In this document: one piece after another, positions 45,381 to 53,900 of the stretch
How positions within the stretch are numbered: the first letter of the stretch is position 1
Layout: each line of letters starts with the position of its first letter
NCBI RefSeq assembly: GCF_029223255.1
Contig: NZ_JARHUC010000001.1
Span: forward strand, 434,001-498,000
Origin: Albimonas marina
GTDB lineage: Bacteria > Pseudomonadota > Alphaproteobacteria > Rhodobacterales > Rhodobacteraceae
Length of the DNA stretch: 64,000 nt
Reading direction: 5' to 3'
Translations under genes and position numbers: made by a program
Notes under the pieces: model-generated
Database searches by the model: none
Seen by the model: the letters and a program-made list of their open reading frames with translations, nothing else
Told to the model about the DNA's origin: nothing

Positions 45381-46281
45381 CGCCGCGCCGGCGGCTCCCC
45401 AAGGCGCCCGGCGGGATCCTTCGCGCCCGCCCGGCGCACCCGCGCCGCGGCCGGAGACGTCGCGGCGGCGCCTTCGGTCCCGAGGTCCGCGCAGAGAATC
45501 CGGCCGGCGACCGAGGCCGAAGACAAGCGCGGCGGCGCATCGACCGCGCGTCGGCCACGGCATCGTCGCGGAGGCATCGTCGAGGGAGCGTCCGGGCTTC
45601 GGGCGCTTCCATCAGCCTCGCGACGGCGATGCCCGGTGAAGGCGGGAGGCTCGACCGGCTTGGATGCGCCTGCACCGGGCGGGCGGCACGTCCCCCTCGA
45701 ACGTCGACGTGACGAACGGCGCGGAGCCAATTCCGTCTCCGTCTCGAGCTTGAGGACCGGGCAGCGCCAGCGCGACGATCCGGCGAGACGCGCGCGACGG
45801 GGCCGCTCTGCGAGGTGGCGCAATTCGTCGACCGCGGGCCATCGTCCCGACGTCCTCGTTTTCGCCTTGTGGCGACGAAGCCGGCCGCTGTTCGGAGCGC
45901 GTGTTCTTCATATCGAGCGCCAGATCAGGGCAGGGCGCGCGCGTCGGATCCGCGACGCGTGAGGGTGCGGCGAAGCGCATGTCGGCGACGCTCCGACGCC
46001 CTCGACCCCGTCCTGCGGCGATGAAGCTGGCCGTTGTTCCAGGCGCGCCCGCCGCTTCGGGGCGGGCGACCGCGGGCGGGCTGCGCGGCGACTGAAGGCG
46101 GGGCGGCGCGTCGTTCGGGCCGCGCGGGCATGCGGGCCTCCGGCCGAGCGGCGGGACCGGGGCGGCGCCCGCTCCTCCTGCCGAACCGCCCCGCGGCGGT
46201 CGCGGGCCCTCTCGCAGGCTTGACTCGCCGCTCTCCACCGGCAGGGCTACGGTCACGTCCGTGTCCCACCGGAGGTTCCGC
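45381..46281. other. About 900-bp gene-poor stretch with a degenerate duplication
   Basis: Open frames here show no recognisable domain, and base composition looks less GC-extreme than in the neighbouring genes. A 30-bp segment at 45871-45900 matches 46017-46046 at 24 of 30 positions, with weaker similarity extending upstream. It could be decayed coding sequence or a non-coding spacer. Confidence 0.4.
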
Positions 46282-47097
46282 ATGCGCGCCCGTCCCCCCC
46301 GTCCCGTCCGCCTCGTCGCCGCCCTCCGCGGAGGCGTGGGCCGGGTCCTGCGGGCGCCGCGCGCGCTCGCGGCGGCCTTCGGCGGGCTGGCGCTGGCCGG
46401 GCTGATCGCGGCGCCGGGCATGGCGCCGGCGCAGGACGCGGACGCCGCCGCGCCGCTGACGGTGGTGGAGCTGTTCACCTCGCAGGGCTGCTCCTCCTGC
46501 CCGCCGGCGGACGAGCTGCTGGCCGAGCTCGCCGCCCGGCCTGACGTGCTCGCCCTGTCGCTGCATGTCGACTACTGGGACTACCTGGGCTGGAAGGACG
46601 CCTTCGCGATGCCCGCCTTCACCAAGCGCCAGGTGGCCTATGGCGAGGCGGCGGGCGCGCGCTCGGTCTACACGCCGCAGATGATCGTGCAGGGCGACGC
46701 GCGCATGGTCGGCTCTCATCGCGACAAGGTGCTGGCGGCGGTGGCCGCGGCCGCCGGCCGCCCGCGCCCGGCCGAGATCCGCATCCGCGAGCTGGGCGAG
46801 GGGCTGGAGGTCCGCGTCCGGCCGCTGGTCGCCGACGCGCCGGCGGGGGTCCTGTGGTTCGTGACCTTCCACAACCCCGAGCCGATCATGATCCCCAAGG
46901 GCGAGAACGCGGGCCGCGAGGTCGCCTACCGCAACGTGGCGCGCAGCTGGATGAAGCTCGGCCGCTGGGACGGCTCGGGCGAGGCGGTCTACGCGGCCCC
47001 GGCCCCCTCGGGCGACGCGCCGGGGGCGGGCGTCGCGGTGATCCTCCAGCAGGGCTACGTCGGTCCAGTGCTGGCCGCCGCCCGCCTGGAGCGCTGA
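46282..47097 (+). CDS. DUF1223 secreted thioredoxin-like protein
   Basis: 271 residues. An N-terminal signal (basic stretch, then AAFGGLALAGLIAAPGMAPA, cleavage near AQ-DAD at 51) exports it. The mature domain has the DUF1223 opening LTVVELFTSQGCSSCPPAD with a thioredoxin-type CxxC (Cys70, Cys73), then HVDYWDYLGWKD and VYTPQMIVQG. A periplasmic thiol role is likely but unproven. The start is the ATG with CCGGAGG seven bases before it; an in-frame GTG 21 bp upstream is weaker. In related genomes it often lies next to acnA; here a chemoreceptor and usg lie between. Confidence 0.9.
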   Translation: MRARPPRPVRLVAALRGGVGRVLRAPRALAAAFGGLALAGLIAAPGMAPAQDADAAAPLTVVELFTSQGCSSCPPADELLAELAARPDVLALSLHVDYWDYLGWKDAFAMPAFTKRQVAYGEAAGARSVYTPQMIVQGDARMVGSHRDKVLAAVAAAAGRPRPAEIRIRELGEGLEVRVRPLVADAPAGVLWFVTFHNPEPIMIPKGENAGREVAYRNVARSWMKLGRWDGSGEAVYAAPAPSGDAPGAGVAVILQQGYVGPVLAAARLER

Positions 47098-47421
47098 GCG
47101 CCGGCGCCCGGGCGCGACGCGCGACCGGGGCGCGACGCAGCCAAGCCCGCCCGCAGGGCGCCTGTAGACCGTTTGTTTTCAAGGGCGCGGCCGTCCGCTC
47201 AGGGCGCGCGAGGGCCGATCTTCGCGCCGAGCCCCGCAGGGCGCCGCCGCCTTCGCGGCCGGGTCCCGCCGTCGCGTCGGGTCGGACAGGCGCCTCGCCG
47301 AGGTGTTTCGCAGAACAGGAGGGCCGACGTGCGGCGTGCGCCGCGAGGGCGAAGGTCGGGGAAGGCGGAGGCAGGGCGCGTCGCGGACGGGGCGGATCGC
47401 CTTGCCCAGGGCGCGAGGCCC
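47098..47421. other. 324-bp spacer with a dispersed repeat
   Basis: It lies between convergent DUF1223 and acyltransferase genes and contains a 33-bp repeat (47131-47163) identical to one at 62304. An AT-rich patch CCGTTTGTTTTCAAGG follows at 47169-47184. No gene was recognised. Confidence 0.5.
47131..47163 (+). repeat. 33-bp dispersed intergenic repeat, copy 1
   Basis: Identical over 33 bp to 62304-62336. A 23-bp core is also present inverted at 50726-50748. It contains CGCGACGCAG and the internal near-palindrome GCCCGCAGGGC. Confidence 0.7.
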
Positions 47422-48381
47422 TCAGCCGGTCTCCCCGCGGGCGGCGCGGATGCGCTCGCCCCGCGGACGGGTCTTCCAGCGGCGGTGCAGCCAGAACCAC
47501 TGCTCGGGCCAGCGCTCGACCCAGGCGCCGAGGCGCGCGTTGACCTCGGCCATCATCGTCTCGGCGTCGGAGCGGGGGATCTCCGGCTCGAACAGCACCG
47601 AGAAGCGGCCGTCGGGCAGGCGCAGGCCGCGGGCGGGGATCAGGGCGGCGTCGAAGCGCAGGGCGAGCTCGGCGGCGGCCAGCGCCGTCTCCGCCTCATG
47701 GCCCAGGAAGGGGATCAGGGGCGAGCCGGTCTGGCGCTGGTCGACCAGGATCAGCGCCACGCCCTTGCGCGCCACGTGGCGCAGCAGCGTCCGGGTCCCG
47801 TCCCGCCCCTTGTGCAGCACCGGCGTCCCGGCATGGGCGATCATCTTCTGCGACCAGGCGTCGAACAGCGGATTGTTGAAGGCCCGGTAGATCAGCGCGC
47901 AGTCGCGTCCGGCGCCGGGCGTCCCGTCCGGCCCCGCCTCCAGCTCCGCCGAGGCGCGCCGCACCGCGAGGCGGATCGATTCCCAGTTGCCGAAATGGGC
48001 GGTGACCAGCACCACGCCGCGGCCCGAGGCGAGGGCGGCGCGCAGGGGGGCGGCGTCCTCGATCGCCACGCGGTCGGGGTCGGCGGCGATGCGCTCGAGG
48101 TCGAGGTATTCCGCCGCCGCGCGGGCGAAGTGGCCGCAGACCTCGGCGGTCAGGCGGCGGGCCTCGGCGCGGTCGGCCCCGGGGCGCACCAGCGCGAGGT
48201 TCGCGGCGACCCGCTTCACCAGCCCCGGCCACAGCGGCCCGACGACCCGGCCCGCGGCCTGCGCCCAGCCCTCGCCCGGCAGAGCGAGCGACGTCGCCTG
48301 CAGCAGCCGCGCGCCCGCCATCTCGATCCGGTCGAGGATCCGGCGGGGCCAGGAGCGCGGACGGCCCGCCGCCCGGCTCAT
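47422..48381 (-). CDS. Lipid A biosynthesis lauroyl/acyl acyltransferase (LpxL/HtrB family)
   Basis: 319 residues. Adds a secondary acyl chain to lipid A, or possibly to another lipid, at the inner face of the inner membrane. The N-terminal amphipathic region is followed by the HX4(D/E) acyltransferase motif TAHFGNWE (His129). Further landmarks are RAFNNPLFD, HKGRDGTRTLLRHVARKG, LVDQRQTGSPLIPFLG and the C-terminal WPEQWFWLHRRWKTRP. The start ATG overlaps the stop of the upstream EamA transporter gene by 4 bp. The two are co-transcribed, and probably also with the nitrile hydratase genes. Confidence 0.92.
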   Translation of the reverse strand: MSRAAGRPRSWPRRILDRIEMAGARLLQATSLALPGEGWAQAAGRVVGPLWPGLVKRVAANLALVRPGADRAEARRLTAEVCGHFARAAAEYLDLERIAADPDRVAIEDAAPLRAALASGRGVVLVTAHFGNWESIRLAVRRASAELEAGPDGTPGAGRDCALIYRAFNNPLFDAWSQKMIAHAGTPVLHKGRDGTRTLLRHVARKGVALILVDQRQTGSPLIPFLGHEAETALAAAELALRFDAALIPARGLRLPDGRFSVLFEPEIPRSDAETMMAEVNARLGAWVERWPEQWFWLHRRWKTRPRGERIRAARGETG

Positions 48382-49274
48382 GACGCCTGCCCGGCGCGCA
48401 CCCGCTCGCGCCACCACACGTAGAGGCCGGCGCCGACGACCACGACCGCGCCCACCACCGTCCAGCCGTCGGGGAACTGGCCGAAGACGACCAGGCCCCA
48501 GATCGCCGAGAACACCAGGCCCAGGTAGCTGATCGGCGCGATGGTCGAGGCCGAGGCGCGGCGCAGCGCCAGGATCATCAGCATGTGTCCGCACCCTCCG
48601 ATCACGCCGAACAGGCCCATCACGATCCCGTCCTGCCACGAGGGCGTGGACCAGTGGAAGGGGACCACCAGGCTCGCCAGCAGGGCGCCGCCCATGGCGG
48701 TGTAGAAGAACGCGGTCCACGGGCTTTCGGACTGGCCCATCCAGCGGGTGGCGATGGCGTAGGAGGCGTAGCAGAAGGCCGAGGCCAGCGGCAGGATCAT
48801 CGCCGGCGTGAACACGTCCGTGCCGGGGCGGATGATGATCATCGCGCCCACGAAGCCGATCGCGACCCCGGTCCAGCGGCGGGGGCCGACCTTCTCCTTC
48901 AGCAGGAAGAAGGCGAGGATGGTCATGAACAGGGGGGCGACCTCGAAGATCGCCACCGCCTCGGCGATCTGCATGGTCTGCAGGGCGGTGAAGAAGCACA
49001 TGGTGGCGCCGAAGGGCATCACCGCGCGGATCACCTGCAGCCCCGGCTGGGAGGTGCGGATCACCCGGCCCATGCGCGGGGCCAGCAGCACCACCGTCCA
49101 GAAGGCCTGGCTGGCGTAGCGCGCCCAGACGACCATCACCGGGTCGTGACGCTCGACCAGCCACTTGGCCACCACGTCCATGGTGGAGAAGAAGACGAGC
49201 GCGCCGATGTAGAGGAGGATGCCGCGCAGCTCGGAGCCGGGCGCATCGGCTCCCGAGCCTGCGGAAGCGGTCAT
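48378..49274 (-). CDS. EamA/DMT-superfamily transporter
   Basis: 298 residues with ten hydrophobic segments in two EamA repeats. The first repeat includes FFSTMDVVAKWLV and ALQTMQIAEAVAIFEVAPLF; the second includes APISYLGLVFSAIWGLVVFGQFP. The C-terminus is cytoplasmic and basic (WWRERVRAGQAS). DMT carriers export or import metabolites such as amino acids. The 55-bp distance to the upstream nitrile hydratase alpha gene on the same strand suggests one transcript, so a link to nitrile or amide metabolism is possible but unproven. Confidence 0.88.
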   Translation of the reverse strand: MTASAGSGADAPGSELRGILLYIGALVFFSTMDVVAKWLVERHDPVMVVWARYASQAFWTVVLLAPRMGRVIRTSQPGLQVIRAVMPFGATMCFFTALQTMQIAEAVAIFEVAPLFMTILAFFLLKEKVGPRRWTGVAIGFVGAMIIIRPGTDVFTPAMILPLASAFCYASYAIATRWMGQSESPWTAFFYTAMGGALLASLVVPFHWSTPSWQDGIVMGLFGVIGGCGHMLMILALRRASASTIAPISYLGLVFSAIWGLVVFGQFPDGWTVVGAVVVVGAGLYVWWRERVRAGQAS

Positions 49275-49329
49275 CTTGCGGGCGGCGTCCGGATCGGGAG
49301 CCGTCGGGGCAGGGGCGTCCGAGGGCGGG

Positions 49330-50022
49330 TCATCGCGCGGCGGCGCCCGCGCCGGGGCCGTCCGGCAGGCGCGGCACGGCCACGCCGATCATGCAGTCGC
49401 GATCGACCAGCGCGGCCAGCCGCTCCTCGGACCAGCCCTCGGTCCCGGCGGGGCGGGCGGGGAGCACCAGGTAGCGCATGTCGGCGGTGGAGTCGTGGAC
49501 CCGCACCGCCACCTCGTCGGGCAGGTCGAGGCCGAACTCCGACAGCACCCGGCGCGGCTCGATCACCACGCGGGAGCGGTAGGCGCGCTGCTTGTACCAG
49601 TCCGGCGGCAGGCCCAGCAGGGTGCGCGGGTAGCACGAGCACAGCGTGCAGACGATGACGTTGTGGGTGGCCGCGTCGTTCTCGACCACCACCAGCTTCA
49701 GCGCGTCGATGTCGGCGCCGAGCTCGCGCGAGGCGGCGGAGCCGTCGGCGAGCAGGCGGGCCTTGTACTCCGGGTCCACCCAGGCGCGCGCCACCACCTT
49801 CGCGCCCATGGCGGGGGAGCGGGCGTCCATCTTGGCGATGGCCTCGGCGATCTGGGCCTCGGTGAAGATCCCCTTCTCGACCAGCAGCTCGCGCACCGCG
49901 ATCTCCAGCGCCTGCGCCTCGGTGAGGGGGGCGTCCTGGTCGGCGCGGTAGGGGTGGCCGGAGGGGCTCATCCCCTCGTGGCTGTGGTGGGGGTGATCGT
50001 GGTCGTGGTGGTCATGGGGCAT
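49330..50022 (-). CDS. Cobalt-type nitrile hydratase alpha subunit / thiocyanate hydrolase gamma-like subunit
   Basis: 230 residues. The metal site is VCTLCSC with Cys125, Cys128 and Cys130; Thr at the third position marks the cobalt type, whereas the iron type has Ser. The remainder fits the family: ALEIAVRELLVEKG, GAKVVARAWVDPEYKARLL, TLLGLPPDWYKQRAYRSRVV and VHDSTADMRYLVLP. The first 15 residues hold eight His and four Asp (MPHDHHDHDHPHHSH), a possible cobalt-handling tail. Its start overlaps the preceding gene by 11 bp and has GGAG eight bases upstream. Because the beta subunit is split, this may be the gamma subunit of a thiocyanate-hydrolase-like heterotrimer. Confidence 0.92.
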   Translation of the reverse strand: MPHDHHDHDHPHHSHEGMSPSGHPYRADQDAPLTEAQALEIAVRELLVEKGIFTEAQIAEAIAKMDARSPAMGAKVVARAWVDPEYKARLLADGSAASRELGADIDALKLVVVENDAATHNVIVCTLCSCYPRTLLGLPPDWYKQRAYRSRVVIEPRRVLSEFGLDLPDEVAVRVHDSTADMRYLVLPARPAGTEGWSEERLAALVDRDCMIGVAVPRLPDGPGAGAAAR

Positions 50023-50305
50023 CGGTCGTCTCCGCGTCCGCGACCGGCTCCAGCCAGTGGGCGTAGATCTCGGCGTCGAGCGTGTCGTCGGGGCGCTCGG
50101 CGGCGTCGCCCCAGAGCTCGCGCATGGTGAAGCGCACCCGCAGCAGGGGCTTCTTCTCGGCGGGCAGGCCGTAGGCGAGCTGCTCGGGGTTGCCGAACTC
50201 GCCCAGGCGCCGCTCGATCACGCCGGTCTTGCCGCGCAGGTACCAGGGCGTGCGCAGGTGGAAGCCCTTGGGCCGCCAGTCCTTGACCCGGACCCGCTCA
50301 GGCAT
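50012..50305 (-). CDS. Nitrile hydratase beta subunit, C-terminal half (SH3-like; SCNase alpha / ToyK-type)
   Basis: 97 residues equal to the C-terminal barrel of a nitrile hydratase beta subunit: HLRTPWYLRGKTGVIERR, GNPEQLAYGLP, LLRVRFTMRELWG and a final acidic tail. It begins with its own ATG, has CCGGAGA eight bases upstream, and overlaps the N-terminal-half gene by 8 bp. It is thus an independent gene rather than the product of a sequencing error. In thiocyanate hydrolase the alpha subunit has this identity. The SH3-like domain packs against the alpha-type subunit and supplies active-site arginines in family structures. Confidence 0.88.
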   Translation of the reverse strand: MPERVRVKDWRPKGFHLRTPWYLRGKTGVIERRLGEFGNPEQLAYGLPAEKKPLLRVRFTMRELWGDAAERPDDTLDAEIYAHWLEPVADAETTDAP

Positions 50306-50651
50306 CGGACGTCTCCGGGGACGCCCCCAGCGAGGCCTCGCCGTAGGTGGTTCCGCGGGCCTTCACCTCGGCCAGCTTGGCCGCCAGCTCGGTCGGCGTG
50401 AAGGCGCCGGCCTCGACGAGGTTGCGGGTCACCGATTCGATCCAGCGCTCGTAGTAGGTCATGGTCTCGAAGGATTCGGGGCCCATGTCCTCCAGCACGC
50501 GGCGCAGGCCGTCGACGGTGAACATGCCGTTGGAGGTGGCGAGCACCATCAACGCGTCGACGCGCTTCTCCCAAAGGGCGAAGTCGTGCTGGGAGGGGTC
50601 GATCTCCCCCGCGGGCAGGCCGCCCATGTCGTGCCAGGATCTCTCGGTCAT
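50298..50651 (-). CDS. Nitrile hydratase beta subunit, N-terminal half (SCNase beta / ToyJ-type)
   Basis: 117 residues matching the helical N-terminal part of nitrile hydratase beta: the start HDMGGLPAGE, FALWEKRVDALMVLATSNG, and TYYERWIESVTRNLVEAGAF, which is the classic YYERW segment. The family's full beta subunit is about 220 residues; this piece plus the next (97) adds to 214. The order N-half, C-half, alpha is the order of scnB-scnA-scnC in thiocyanate hydrolase. No clear ribosome-binding site precedes the ATG. No cobalt-insertion activator gene was seen in the window. Confidence 0.88.
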   Translation of the reverse strand: MTERSWHDMGGLPAGEIDPSQHDFALWEKRVDALMVLATSNGMFTVDGLRRVLEDMGPESFETMTYYERWIESVTRNLVEAGAFTPTELAAKLAEVKARGTTYGEASLGASPETSDA

Positions 50652-50725
50652 GGAGCGGAGGCTACGCCCGCCCGCGCGCGGCGCCAAGCCCATGCGAACG
50701 GCGCGGAGCGGGGAGGCGGGGACGG

Positions 50726-50748
50726 AGGCGCCCTGCGGGCGGGCTTGG
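50726..50748 (-). repeat. Dispersed intergenic repeat, inverted copy
   Basis: The reverse complement of this 23-bp segment is identical to the core of the repeats at 47141-47163 and 62314-62336. Confidence 0.65.
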
Positions 50749-50844
50749 GCATCCGGCGAAAGGGCGCGAGGAGGGCCGGAGGCGGGCGCGTCCGGCCGGC
50801 GGGGAGAGGCCCCGGGTCGAGCCCGGGGCGCCCTCTCGCCCGGG

Positions 50845-50965
50845 GCCGCCTCGCCCTGTGCGCCGCCTCGCGCCGGGGCCGCCTCGCGCTGCGGCCGCCC
50901 CGCCCTGTGCGCGGCTCGCGCCGGGGCCGCCTCGCGCTGCGGTCGCCTCGCCCTGTGCGCCGCCC
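50845..50965. repeat. 48-49-bp tandem repeat, 2.5 copies
   Basis: Units start at 50845 (49 bp), 50894 (48 bp) and 50942 (partial). Each begins G(C/T)CGCC(T/C)CGCCCTGTGCGC. Copies differ at few positions, so the duplication is recent. Confidence 0.7.
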
Positions 50966-50977
50966 CAGCGCCAGGGG

Positions 50978-51646
50978 TCAGCGGCGGAAGACGAGGGCGA
51001 GGTTGTTGGCGGGCATCTCGATCCGCGTCTCCAGCGTCATCCCGTGCAGGGCGGCCAGCGCCACCACGTCCGCCAGCGGGCGCACGCCCCAGGCGGGGTC
51101 GCGCTCCTGCAAGGTGCGGTGGAAGGCGAGGTTGGAGGGGGCGGTGCCCTCGGCCAGCAGGAACGGGCCGTAGAGGATCGCGCGCCCGCCCTCGCCAAGC
51201 GCCCTGGCGGCGCCGGCGAACAGGCCCTCGGCCACCCGCCACGGCGCGATATGGATCACGTTGGCGCAGAACACCGCCTGCAGCGGCCCGTGGGTGAGGG
51301 CGAGCGCGGCGGGCCAGTCCTCGGTCGCGTCGAGGCGGATGGGCTCGGCGAGGTTGGGCAGGCCCTCATGCTCGCGCCAGGCGCGGATCGAGCGGATGTG
51401 CAGGGGATCGGGGTCCGACGGGATCCAGGTCATCGCGGGCAGGGCCTCGGCCCCCGCGACCGCGTGCTGGCCGGGGCCGGAGCCAATCTCGAGCAGGGGG
51501 CCGCGCTCCCCGGCGAGGACGTCCTTCAGCATCCCGGCGATGGGGCCGGCGTTGCGCAGGGCGGCGGGGGCGACCAGGCGCTCGGCCGTCTCGTCCTCGT
51601 AGCGGGGGCGGGAAGCGGCGGGGTCCTGGGGATCGGGGTCGGTCAT
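50978..51646 (-). CDS. DUF938 family SAM-dependent methyltransferase-like protein
   Basis: 222 residues. The SAM-binding motif I is LLEIGSGPGQH near residue 51, followed by PSDPDPLHIRSIRAW and VFCANVIHIAPWRV (motif post-I and the DUF938 signature), then YGPFLLAEG. The family is widespread, cytoplasmic and of unknown substrate. It is divergent from the N-formylglutamate amidohydrolase gene across 129 bp. Confidence 0.9.
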   Translation of the reverse strand: MTDPDPQDPAASRPRYEDETAERLVAPAALRNAGPIAGMLKDVLAGERGPLLEIGSGPGQHAVAGAEALPAMTWIPSDPDPLHIRSIRAWREHEGLPNLAEPIRLDATEDWPAALALTHGPLQAVFCANVIHIAPWRVAEGLFAGAARALGEGGRAILYGPFLLAEGTAPSNLAFHRTLQERDPAWGVRPLADVVALAALHGMTLETRIEMPANNLALVFRR

Positions 51647-51775
51647 GGCAAGCCTCCGGTTCGGGGGGGAGGGAACGCCTCGCGCCCGGCCGGGTCAAGG
51701 GGGGCGACGGCGCTTCCCTTGCCAGCCGCGGCGGGGCGCCTATGCTCGCGGGCGTTCCCCCGGACCGGAGTTCCC

Positions 51776-52537
51776 ATGCCCTCCATGCCCGCCTTCGAGC
51801 TGGTCAATCCCGACGGCGATCCCTCGGTGCTGCTGCTGTGCGACCACGCCTCCAACGCGGTGCCGGCGGAGGTGAACGGGGGCGACCTGGGCCTGCCGCC
51901 CGAGGACATGGCCCGCCACATCGCCTACGACGTGGGCGCGCGGGGGCTGACGCTGCGGCTGGCGGCGCGGCTGGGGGTTCCGGCGGTGCTGTCGACCTTC
52001 TCGCGGCTGGTGATCGACCCCAACCGGGGCGAGGACGACCCGACGCTGATCATGAAGCTCAACGACGGCTCGGTGATCCCGGCGAACCGGGGCGTGGACG
52101 CGGCCGAGACCGAGGCGCGGCTCGACGCCTGGCACCGGCCCTACCACCAGGCGATCCGGTCGCGGATCGACGCGGCCGAGGCGCAGGGCGTGCGCCCGGC
52201 GCTGATCTCGATGCACTCGTTCACGCCGCAGTTTCGCGGCCGCCCGCCCCGGCCCTGGCACGTGGGCGTGCTGTGGGACCGCGACGGGCGCCTGCCGATC
52301 CCGCTGATGGAGATCCTGCGCGAGGAGCCCGACCTGGTGATCGGCGACAACGAGCCCTACACCGGCGCGCTCTCGGGCGACTGCATGTGGACCCACGGCA
52401 CCTGCCGCGGCCTGCCCAACGCCCTGATCGAGGTGCGCAACGACCTGATCGCGGATGCGCAGGGCGAGGCGATCTGGGCCGAGCGCCTGGCCCCGATCCT
52501 CGAGCAGGCGCTGGACCGGATGCGCGCGGGCGCCTAG
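51776..52537 (+). CDS. N-formylglutamate amidohydrolase family protein (HutG-like)
   Basis: 253 residues. The family hydrolyses N-formylglutamate to formate and glutamate at the end of one histidine degradation route. Landmarks are LLCDHASNAVP, FSRLVIDPNRGEDDPTLI, PYHQAIRSRID, ISMHSFTPQFRG and LIEVRNDLI. The ATG follows CCGGAG by a short gap. No hut genes are nearby, so the true substrate may be another N-formyl or N-acyl amino acid. It is followed after 66 bp by a DUF1244 gene on the same strand. Confidence 0.9.
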   Translation: MPSMPAFELVNPDGDPSVLLLCDHASNAVPAEVNGGDLGLPPEDMARHIAYDVGARGLTLRLAARLGVPAVLSTFSRLVIDPNRGEDDPTLIMKLNDGSVIPANRGVDAAETEARLDAWHRPYHQAIRSRIDAAEAQGVRPALISMHSFTPQFRGRPPRPWHVGVLWDRDGRLPIPLMEILREEPDLVIGDNEPYTGALSGDCMWTHGTCRGLPNALIEVRNDLIADAQGEAIWAERLAPILEQALDRMRAGA

Positions 52538-52603
52538 ATCGGGGGTCGAGGCCGCGCCGCCGCCCCTGACGCAGGGGCCCGCGCGCGGAGGATGGAGGAT
52601 CCC

Positions 52604-52900
52604 ATGGACGACGCCACCCGCACCGAGCTTGAGGCCGCCGCCTTCCGCCGCCTGCGCGATCACCTGCGCGAGCGGACGGACGTGCAGAACATCGACCTGA
52701 TGAACCTGGCCGGCTTCTGCCGAAACTGCCTGAGCCGCTGGTACCAGGAGGCCGCCGCCGAGCGGGGGCTGGAGATGTCGAAGGACGAGGGCCGCGAGAT
52801 CGTCTACGGCATGCCCTACGACGAGTGGCGCGCCCGGCACCAGACCGAGGCCGGCCCCGACAAGCAGGCCGCCTTCGAGAAGAACCGCCCCGACCACTGA
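52604..52900 (+). CDS. DUF1244 domain protein (SMc04008-like)
   Basis: 98 residues, a small helical protein family common in proteobacteria with no assigned function. Highly conserved segments are RTELEAAAFRRLRDHLRER, DVQNIDLMNLAGFCRNCLSR and the cysteine pair in CRNC. The start at MDDATRTE was chosen because GGAGGA lies just before it; an ATG 12 bp upstream is possible. It is probably co-transcribed with the amidohydrolase. Confidence 0.9.
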   Translation: MDDATRTELEAAAFRRLRDHLRERTDVQNIDLMNLAGFCRNCLSRWYQEAAAERGLEMSKDEGREIVYGMPYDEWRARHQTEAGPDKQAAFEKNRPDH

Positions 52901-52948
52901 ACCCAGCCGCGCGCCCCGCCCGAGGGCGGCCGCCCGGCCCGCCGCGCA

Positions 52949-53102
52949 GGCGCCGCGTCGGCCGTCGCGCCCGTGCGACGGGTCCGCCCGCGGCGCGTGG
53001 CGGGCCGGGCGCCGGCTGGCGACCGTCGCCATCGGCGCGACGCCCGCCCTGCGCCGCGGGCGCGCGCGGGGCAGGGGCGGAAGGCCCGACGCGGCGCCTC
53101 CG
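52949..53102. repeat. MITE/REP-like intergenic element, copy B
   Basis: Homologous in two blocks to copy A at 28959-29160, with a shorter middle. Ends carry GGCGCCGCGTC and its inverse GACGCGGCGCC. It lies in the 223-bp spacer between convergent DUF1244 and SDR genes. Confidence 0.55.
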
Positions 53103-53123
53103 GCGCGGGCGGCGAGCGGGCCC

Positions 53124-53900
53124 TCAGGCGGTCAGGCGGCGCCAGGCCCTGAAATAGAGCTGGTTGGGCAGGCGGTTCAGCAGCCTCAGGAACCAGGTGA
53201 AGCGGCGGGGGAAGGCGATCTCGAACCCCGGGCGGGCGAGCCCGTCGGCGATCCGCTGCGCGGCCTCCTGCGGCTGCATCAGGAACGGCATCTCGAAGGC
53301 GTTGACCGCGGTCGCCTCGGTCTCGACGAAGCCGGGGTTGATGACCGAGATCCGCACCCCGAGGTCCATGAGGTCCAGCGCCAGGCTCTCGGCCATCGCG
53401 ATCAGCCCGGCCTTGGTGGCCGAGTAGGCCGCGGCCTGGGGCAGGCCGCCGTAGCCCGCGACCGAGGCGGTGATCGCCACGTGCCCCGAGCCGCGCGCGA
53501 TCATCGCCTTCATCGCCGGATCCAGCGCGTTGACCACCCCGCCCAGGTTCACGTCGAAGGTCTTGCGGGCCTTGGCCGCGTCGAACTCCTGCGCGCGCAT
53601 CGGCAGGTAGACGCCCGCGTTCAGCACCGCCAGCGCCAGCGGGCCCTCGGCCTCGATCTCCGCCACGATGCGGGCCATCGCCTCGGGGTCGGTCACGTCC
53701 CCCGGCGTCGGGATCACCCGGCCCGGCCCCGCGACGACCGCCAGCGCCTCGAGCTTCTCGGCCGAGCGGGCGGTGGCATGCACCGTCCAGCCGCGGGAGG
53801 CGAGCTCCAGCGTCAGCGCCCGCCCGATGCCGCCCGAGGCGCCGGTGATCCACGCGACCCCGTCCTGCGGCCGCATCACCTGGTCGAAGACGTTGCTCAT
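53124..53900 (-). CDS. Short-chain dehydrogenase/reductase
   Basis: 258 residues, classical SDR. The cofactor motif TGASGGIG is at 19-26, NAG at about 94-96, and the catalytic residues are Ser146, Tyr159 and Lys163 (YSATK). ATARS after the second strand suggests NADP preference (weak). The basic C-terminus FPRRFTWFLRLLNRLPNQLY could be membrane-associated. It lies 7 bp after a DUF6134 gene on the same strand and belongs to a minus-strand set with a ChrR-like protein. Confidence 0.92.
   Translation of the reverse strand: MSNVFDQVMRPQDGVAWITGASGGIGRALTLELASRGWTVHATARSAEKLEALAVVAGPGRVIPTPGDVTDPEAMARIVAEIEAEGPLALAVLNAGVYLPMRAQEFDAAKARKTFDVNLGGVVNALDPAMKAMIARGSGHVAITASVAGYGGLPQAAAYSATKAGLIAMAESLALDLMDLGVRISVINPGFVETEATAVNAFEMPFLMQPQEAAQRIADGLARPGFEIAFPRRFTWFLRLLNRLPNQLYFRAWRRLTA

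Follow-up and report, generated by a model that had tools for sequence, protein, structure and literature searches.

The closest described systems are found among the nitrile hydratases (NHases) and the thiocyanate hydrolases (SCNases). A three-part NHase encoded in the order beta-N, beta-C, alpha is of a kind already known, from Streptomyces canus AnhDEA. According to PMC7329996, the three chains of that enzyme assemble with no activator, and experiments identified AnhD, the beta-N chain, as a metal and subunit-swapping chaperone; the paper gives chain masses of 10.41, 11.35 and 21.33 kDa, and names Tyr108 and Leu110 as docking residues. The same paper names ToyJ as the alpha subunit of ToyJKL, the three-subunit NHase of Streptomyces rimosus, and says that ToyJ alone is active. 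An earlier sequence-only reading of the DNA analysed here was therefore mistaken in taking ToyL for the alpha subunit. The review PMC13243292 places the S. canus enzyme on one branch with that of S. rimosus. In the solved SCNase (PDB 2dd4), beta is likewise made of two chains; the review PMC7193024 gives the SCNase gene order as alpha, beta, gamma, activator, and the sequence-only reading had likened the present order to scnB-scnA-scnC. The Pseudomonas putida enzyme (PDB 3qxe) represents the two-subunit cobalt NHases.

The locus and its three genes

We analysed a stretch of 64,000 nucleotides from Albimonas marina, called the window hereafter. The locus, on the minus strand from 50651 to 49330, carries the genes for the beta N-half, the beta C-half and alpha, in this order (Table 1), with overlaps between consecutive genes of 8 nt (N-half/C-half) and 11 nt (C-half/alpha). 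Three overlapping genes, for two beta halves and a VCTLCSC alpha, had been proposed in the sequence-only reading, and coordinates, lengths and motif all agree with it. Each of the two later genes was also thought to have its own ATG and a GGAGA-type ribosome site; GGAGA does lie 6 nt 5' of the ATG in both, and none is found at the first gene.

Table 1. Features of the locus and of its surroundings (window coordinates)
Feature	Coordinates	Strand	Matches and remarks
Beta N-half subunit, 117 aa	50298..50651	-	PF21006 72.8 bits; TIGR03888 positions 4-103; PDB 3qxe_B alignment
Beta C-half subunit, 97 aa	50012..50305	-	PF02211 64.8 bits; TIGR03888 positions 143-226; PDB 3qxe_B alignment
Alpha subunit, 230 aa	49330..50022	-	PF02979 268.5 bits; TIGR01323 257.5
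EamA-type transporter	48378..49274	-	PF00892 113.2 bits; 55 bp downstream of alpha
Neighbours	46261-53900		DUF1223, lipid A acyltransferase-like, EamA, DUF938, N-formylglutamate amidohydrolase, DUF1244, short-chain dehydrogenase

The beta N-half is the counterpart of AnhD and of SCNase beta, and the C-half that of AnhE and of SCNase alpha. In the alpha chain, the motif VCTLCSC (VCTLCSCYPR) contains the cobalt residues C125, C128 and C130. The N-terminus of alpha is His-rich, a trait that is not specific, since alpha N-termini with many histidines, present at 66 of 119 split loci (duplicates counted), also occur in 20 of 48 two-subunit enzymes. The genome is 99.6% complete, and has one match each for PF02979 and PF21006.

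The window resembles S. canus AnhDEA in gene order, in its predicted cobalt, and in a genome where no activator was found. Streptomyces loci of the L-type with CYPL, such as L193, L196, L201 and L205, have chain masses near those of S. canus, and their numbering fits Tyr108 and Leu110. The S. canus enzyme is therefore probably L-type and, judged from the stated masses and residues, probably belongs to another clade than the window. The window differs from it by an arginine in place of the CYPL leucine, and by a longer, His-rich alpha. ToyJKL, a three-subunit NHase as well, is probably not with the window's clade either, because it is said to branch with S. canus in PMC13243292.

The split of the beta subunit in relatives

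Among the matches listed, the best 80 named loci were ranked by likeness to the window (two of them, L094 and L096, have identical alpha). Beta was split in 77, fused in none, and cut by a contig end in 3; the order was N-C-alpha in 74 and C-alpha-N in 3. The closest named relative among these matches was Albimonas pacifica, with 96% identity of alpha in the best segment, and 94.3% across 229 codons. Within the family, an alpha match was present in 78 of 149 genomes (own counted). Thirty family loci were examined (own counted): 25 had a split beta in the window's order, and 5 had alpha followed by beta, of which 4 were clearly fused, L027 having no detected C-half. Split genes are thus present in 24 family genomes besides that of the window, and the split recurs in loci whose labels name several phyla; many are metagenome bins.

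At four loci, the halves are separated by another gene: a cupin gene (Cupin_2, 58 to 64 bits) in L003, L008 and L009, and a short-chain dehydrogenase gene in L149. A frameshift or an assembly error was ruled out on these two grounds, the recurrence of the split in relatives and the intervening genes. The sequence-only reading had considered that resequencing might join the two halves into one frame; in the relatives, the halves stand apart.

One locus, L058, is of a different type. Its beta is split, in the order alpha, beta-N, beta-C, but it lies inside the two-subunit clade and has kept an activator. Either beta was split there a second time, independently, or the locus has a frameshift.

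Distribution of the activator

An activator-like frame was found at 47 of the 48 distinct two-subunit loci, L070 being the exception, compared to none of the 112 split loci and none of the 18 Streptomyces split loci (0 of 130, L058 excluded), many of the loci offering only about 1.5 kb of flank. Such a frame was also present at both SCNase loci, at L058, and at three of six incomplete loci. In the plasmid SCNase loci L040 and L041, a P15K-like gene lies directly downstream of the SCNase genes.

Whole genomes were then considered. TIGR03889 scored above its 46-bit cut-off in none of 23 split-only genomes, at least 3 of which are less than 90% complete, and in 9 of 10 genomes taken as two-subunit, the tenth reaching 35.4 bits. 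The weak match seen in one of the 23 (G143) is its own beta-N. Two further genomes, G127 and G128, each contain a split and a two-subunit NHase together (L025, L026, L164, L169); G128 is above the cut-off and G127, with 41.6 bits, below, and the stronger activator matches adjoin the two-subunit copy. Of 14 named genomes carrying a split locus, a single one (G548) passes TIGR03889; it has a second, weak match in a 246-aa frame 1.3 kb off. Five others have matches below the cut-off, corresponding to their own beta-N (three cases), to an L-type locus (one) and to a two-subunit locus (one).

In the window's genome, TIGR03889 had no match, and PF21006 matched the beta N-half alone. As a detector, PF21006 places 5 of 5 tested NHase activators above its cut-off, but it is weak on P15K (20.9 and 15.0 bits, for a cut-off of 21.5), and TIGR03889 is blind to P15K, with no match in SCNase record W03. 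Because both models are poor at P15K, one P15K-like sequence was added as a query; its best match in the genome had E = 0.062. The cobW family (P47K-like) gave 8 matches, none of them on the window's contig. The earlier remark that no P15K or P47K-type activator is adjacent therefore stands, and for P15K-like genes the absence extends to the whole genome at the E value given. The association between a split beta and the lack of an activator draws on a small number of independent lineages, and has an exception in L058.

Family models and phylogeny

The alpha subunit scores 257.5 bits with the NHase equivalog TIGR01323, above the cut-off of 249.85, and 222.5 bits with the SCNase gamma model TIGR03887, below its cut-off of 291.45; two annotated SCNases reach 356.8 and 359.2 bits with the latter. 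The VCTLCSC motif and the counterparts of beta Arg52 and Arg157 are as expected of a cobalt-type NHase. It falls outside the two-subunit NHases, as beta is not fused and no activator is adjacent. As far as sequence tells, the description as a split-beta cobalt nitrile hydratase is upheld.

In a tree of 66 alphas, whose bootstrap was not wholly settled, a branch with 100/99 support divides the family. On one side are the window, SCNase, and the sampled split enzymes except L058 and the Streptomyces L-type; on the other are the two-subunit NHases, the L-type split enzymes (L193 being the one included among the four CYPL loci named above) and L058. The comparison of alpha with SCNase and NHase proposed in the sequence-only reading thus places it on the SCNase side, and not with the ordinary two-subunit enzymes. 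Quick alpha trees placed the window and SCNase alike; apart from L058, they moved 6 and 7 deep split rows to the two-subunit side, at weak support values of 69 and 84. These trees are unrooted, and are silent on whether the fused or the split state is ancestral.

AU tests were carried out on groups chosen after the quick trees had been viewed. Neither an SCNase placed beyond the window's clade (P = 0.276) nor a single split + SCNase group opposed to the two-subunit enzymes (P = 0.425) was rejected; two-subunit enzymes and SCNase as one clade were barely rejected (P = 0.0435). An origin of SCNase inside the window's clade is suggested by the trees, and only suggested, because the first of these tests allows SCNase to fall outside.

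In the beta-N tree, where few columns and long branches limit resolution, a 100/99 division has split beta-N, SCNase beta-N and P15K on one side, and on the other two-subunit beta-N, L-type beta-N and 12 activators, which group as one clade (99/97). P15K kept to the split side when SCNase beta-N was left out of a quick beta-N tree (support 88). By family model the window's enzyme is an NHase, and by phylogeny it is closer to SCNase than the two-subunit NHases are. Its lineage appears distinct and, as far as a narrow search of the open literature shows, uncharacterised, no described member having been found in that search.

The window could also be an ordinary NHase whose beta was split by chance, without functional meaning, cobalt being delivered by an unrelated chaperone, of the cobW family for example. 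L058, with its split inside the two-subunit clade and its activator kept, provides a precedent, and the 8 cobW-family matches would supply candidates. Evidence against such an accident comes from the recurrence of the split in loci whose labels name several phyla (many being metagenome bins), from an alpha standing outside the two-subunit clade at 100/99, and from the contrast in activator-like frames between split and two-subunit loci, L058 aside. We regard this explanation as rather improbable.

Signature residues

Residues were counted on 187 distinct alphas out of 205 loci, classed by gene layout: a split set of 112 distinct loci (window counted), gathered largely by likeness to the window; 48 two-subunit loci; and 18 Streptomyces split loci. 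Six incomplete loci were left over, and L058 was kept apart. Arg133 of the window's alpha, after CSCYP, corresponds in the alignment to SCNase gamma residue 136. At this position, the split loci have Arg in 107 cases, Lys in 3 and Trp in 2, and the three SCNases examined all have Arg. The two-subunit loci have Trp (40), Phe (6) or His (2), and the Streptomyces split loci Leu (14), Ile (2) or Arg (2). We take the places of SCNase Arg136 and NHase Trp117 to line the substrate pocket; in a literature search, Arg136 of SCNase was mentioned in no paper found, and Trp117 was treated in no NHase paper found.

A second difference concerns the place of P. putida beta Tyr215, occupied in the window by W84 of the C-half. 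Trp is found there at all 112 split loci and in both SCNases examined, compared to Tyr at 46 two-subunit loci (His at the other 2); the Streptomyces split loci have Tyr in 15 cases, Trp in 2 and a gap in 1. Inspection of the beta arginines, advised in the sequence-only reading, showed the equivalents of both Arg52 (N-half R50) and Arg157 (C-half R18) to be present, as they are in all complete loci of all classes. The equivalents of Glu56 (N-half E54) and His147 (C-half H16) are present at all 112 split loci, while the two SCNases compared, both plasmid-borne, have Asn and Tyr there. Where P. putida beta has His71, the window has Arg, as do 108 of the 112 split loci and 12 of the 48 two-subunit loci.

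The window therefore shares with the P. putida enzyme its protein families, its cobalt motif and the four beta residues Arg52, Glu56, His147 and Arg157, and differs from two-subunit NHases by its split beta, the lack of an adjoining activator, and the residues at alpha 133 and at the Tyr215 place. With SCNase it shares a beta in two chains, the alpha arginine, the beta tryptophan, and its side of the alpha and beta-N trees. The plasmid SCNases L040 and L041, from Alphaproteobacteria, differ from it by a fused beta that lacks Glu56 and His147. Because SCNase-type Arg and Trp are combined with NHase-type Glu56 and His147, the window is neither a plain NHase nor an SCNase by signature. The earlier proposal of an organisation like that of SCNase holds in part: the N-half has its match in the beta chain of SCNase and the C-half in its alpha chain, and Arg133 and, within the limits of the AU test, the alpha tree agree, but membership of the SCNase family fails on TIGR03887 and on Glu56/His147. 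On this basis, family model and residues, an SCNase proper was ruled out.

The same chains might nevertheless hydrolyse thiocyanate, the anionic substrate being drawn by alpha Arg133 and the products being carbonyl sulfide and ammonia. The two-chain beta of the solved SCNase, the 100/99 branch, the arginine at alpha 133 and the tryptophan for Tyr215 are all in keeping with this. The TIGR03887 score, far from those of the annotated SCNases, argues against it, as do Glu56 and His147 where two annotated SCNases have Asn and Tyr, the P15K-like gene of both annotated SCNases, with none found in the window's genome, and the AU test that lets SCNase fall outside the window's clade. We consider thiocyanate hydrolysis unlikely.

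Neighbourhood and cobalt or nitrile context

The EamA-type transporter gene is possibly a member of the operon; in 109 loci of N-C-alpha order (window and duplicate genomes counted, flanks unequal), such a gene occurs in 28, mostly directly downstream. Other recurrent neighbours of the same loci are DUF1223 (41), lipid A acyltransferase-like (39), FliG (33) and aconitase (29) genes. This recurrence looks like inherited chromosomal synteny of Rhodobacterales.

The seven scanned neighbours include no nitrile-pathway amidase and no cobalt transporter. The search for a NicO-family cobalt transporter was negative in the window's genome, and matched 5 of 14 controls. A link to aldoximes was sought with PF13816, which matched 0 of 20 genomes, and none of its controls. 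Neighbours with neither amidase nor cobalt transporter, and a genome with no TIGR03889 activator, could be read as signs that the genes are vestigial, or that an inactive complex has been retained by synteny. Such a reading is very hard to reconcile with dN/dS values, relative to A. pacifica, of 0.22, 0.16 and 0.13 for the beta N-half, the beta C-half and alpha, with the retention of the metal ligands and of both beta arginines, and with the split genes of 24 more family genomes; we give it almost no credit.

Elsewhere, HoxN or CbtAB cobalt-transport genes adjoin several CaN and Streptomyces split loci. Aquaporin, DUF302, and HoxN or CbtAB genes occur near the split NHase in L034, L035, L036, L037 and L038, in varying combinations. 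In Planktothrix (L033:1421-4606), the split NHase genes begin 12 bp after the end of an asparagine synthase gene, perhaps as part of a biosynthetic cluster.

Proposed enzyme and its maturation

We think it probable that the locus encodes a cobalt NHase which acts on a small polar nitrile, and whose free beta N-half also serves as cobalt chaperone. The three chains would form one cobalt(III) enzyme, with alpha, beta-N and beta-C as the working unit. Cobalt would be bound by alpha C125, C128 and C130; oxidation of C128 and C130, to sulfinic and sulfenic acid, is expected, and beta-N Arg50 and beta-C Arg18 would hold these two residues. The nitrile would be hydrated to the amide. Because Arg133 occupies a position that is mostly aromatic in two-subunit enzymes, a small, polar or anionic nitrile is suggested as substrate.

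Because no activator gene was found, free beta-N most likely pairs first with alpha as a loading complex, helping cobalt in; once loading is complete, it would join beta-C and alpha as a working part of the mature enzyme, like AnhD of S. canus. This chaperone role is inferred by analogy with S. canus, whose enzyme is probably of another clade. Against a maturation without activator, both SCNases, which are on the window's side of the tree, carry an activator-like gene. The negative NicO search in the genome also counts against the proposed cobalt enzyme.

A broader scheme may be proposed, tentatively, and we find it more doubtful than not. The window would belong to a third lineage of the NHase superfamily, the parent stock of SCNase, with a free beta-N performing two jobs. 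Activators and P15K would be duplicates of beta-N, of at least two independent origins, needed once beta-N had become locked in a fused beta.

NHases serve as industrial catalysts, and most depend on a specific activator. Expression could be simpler with a widespread branch that seemingly matures without one. A catalytic half-subunit that possibly performs the loading allows the evolution of activators to be tested directly, and the combination of an SCNase-like arginine with NHase-like network residues would make this lineage a natural intermediate for the origin of thiocyanate hydrolysis.
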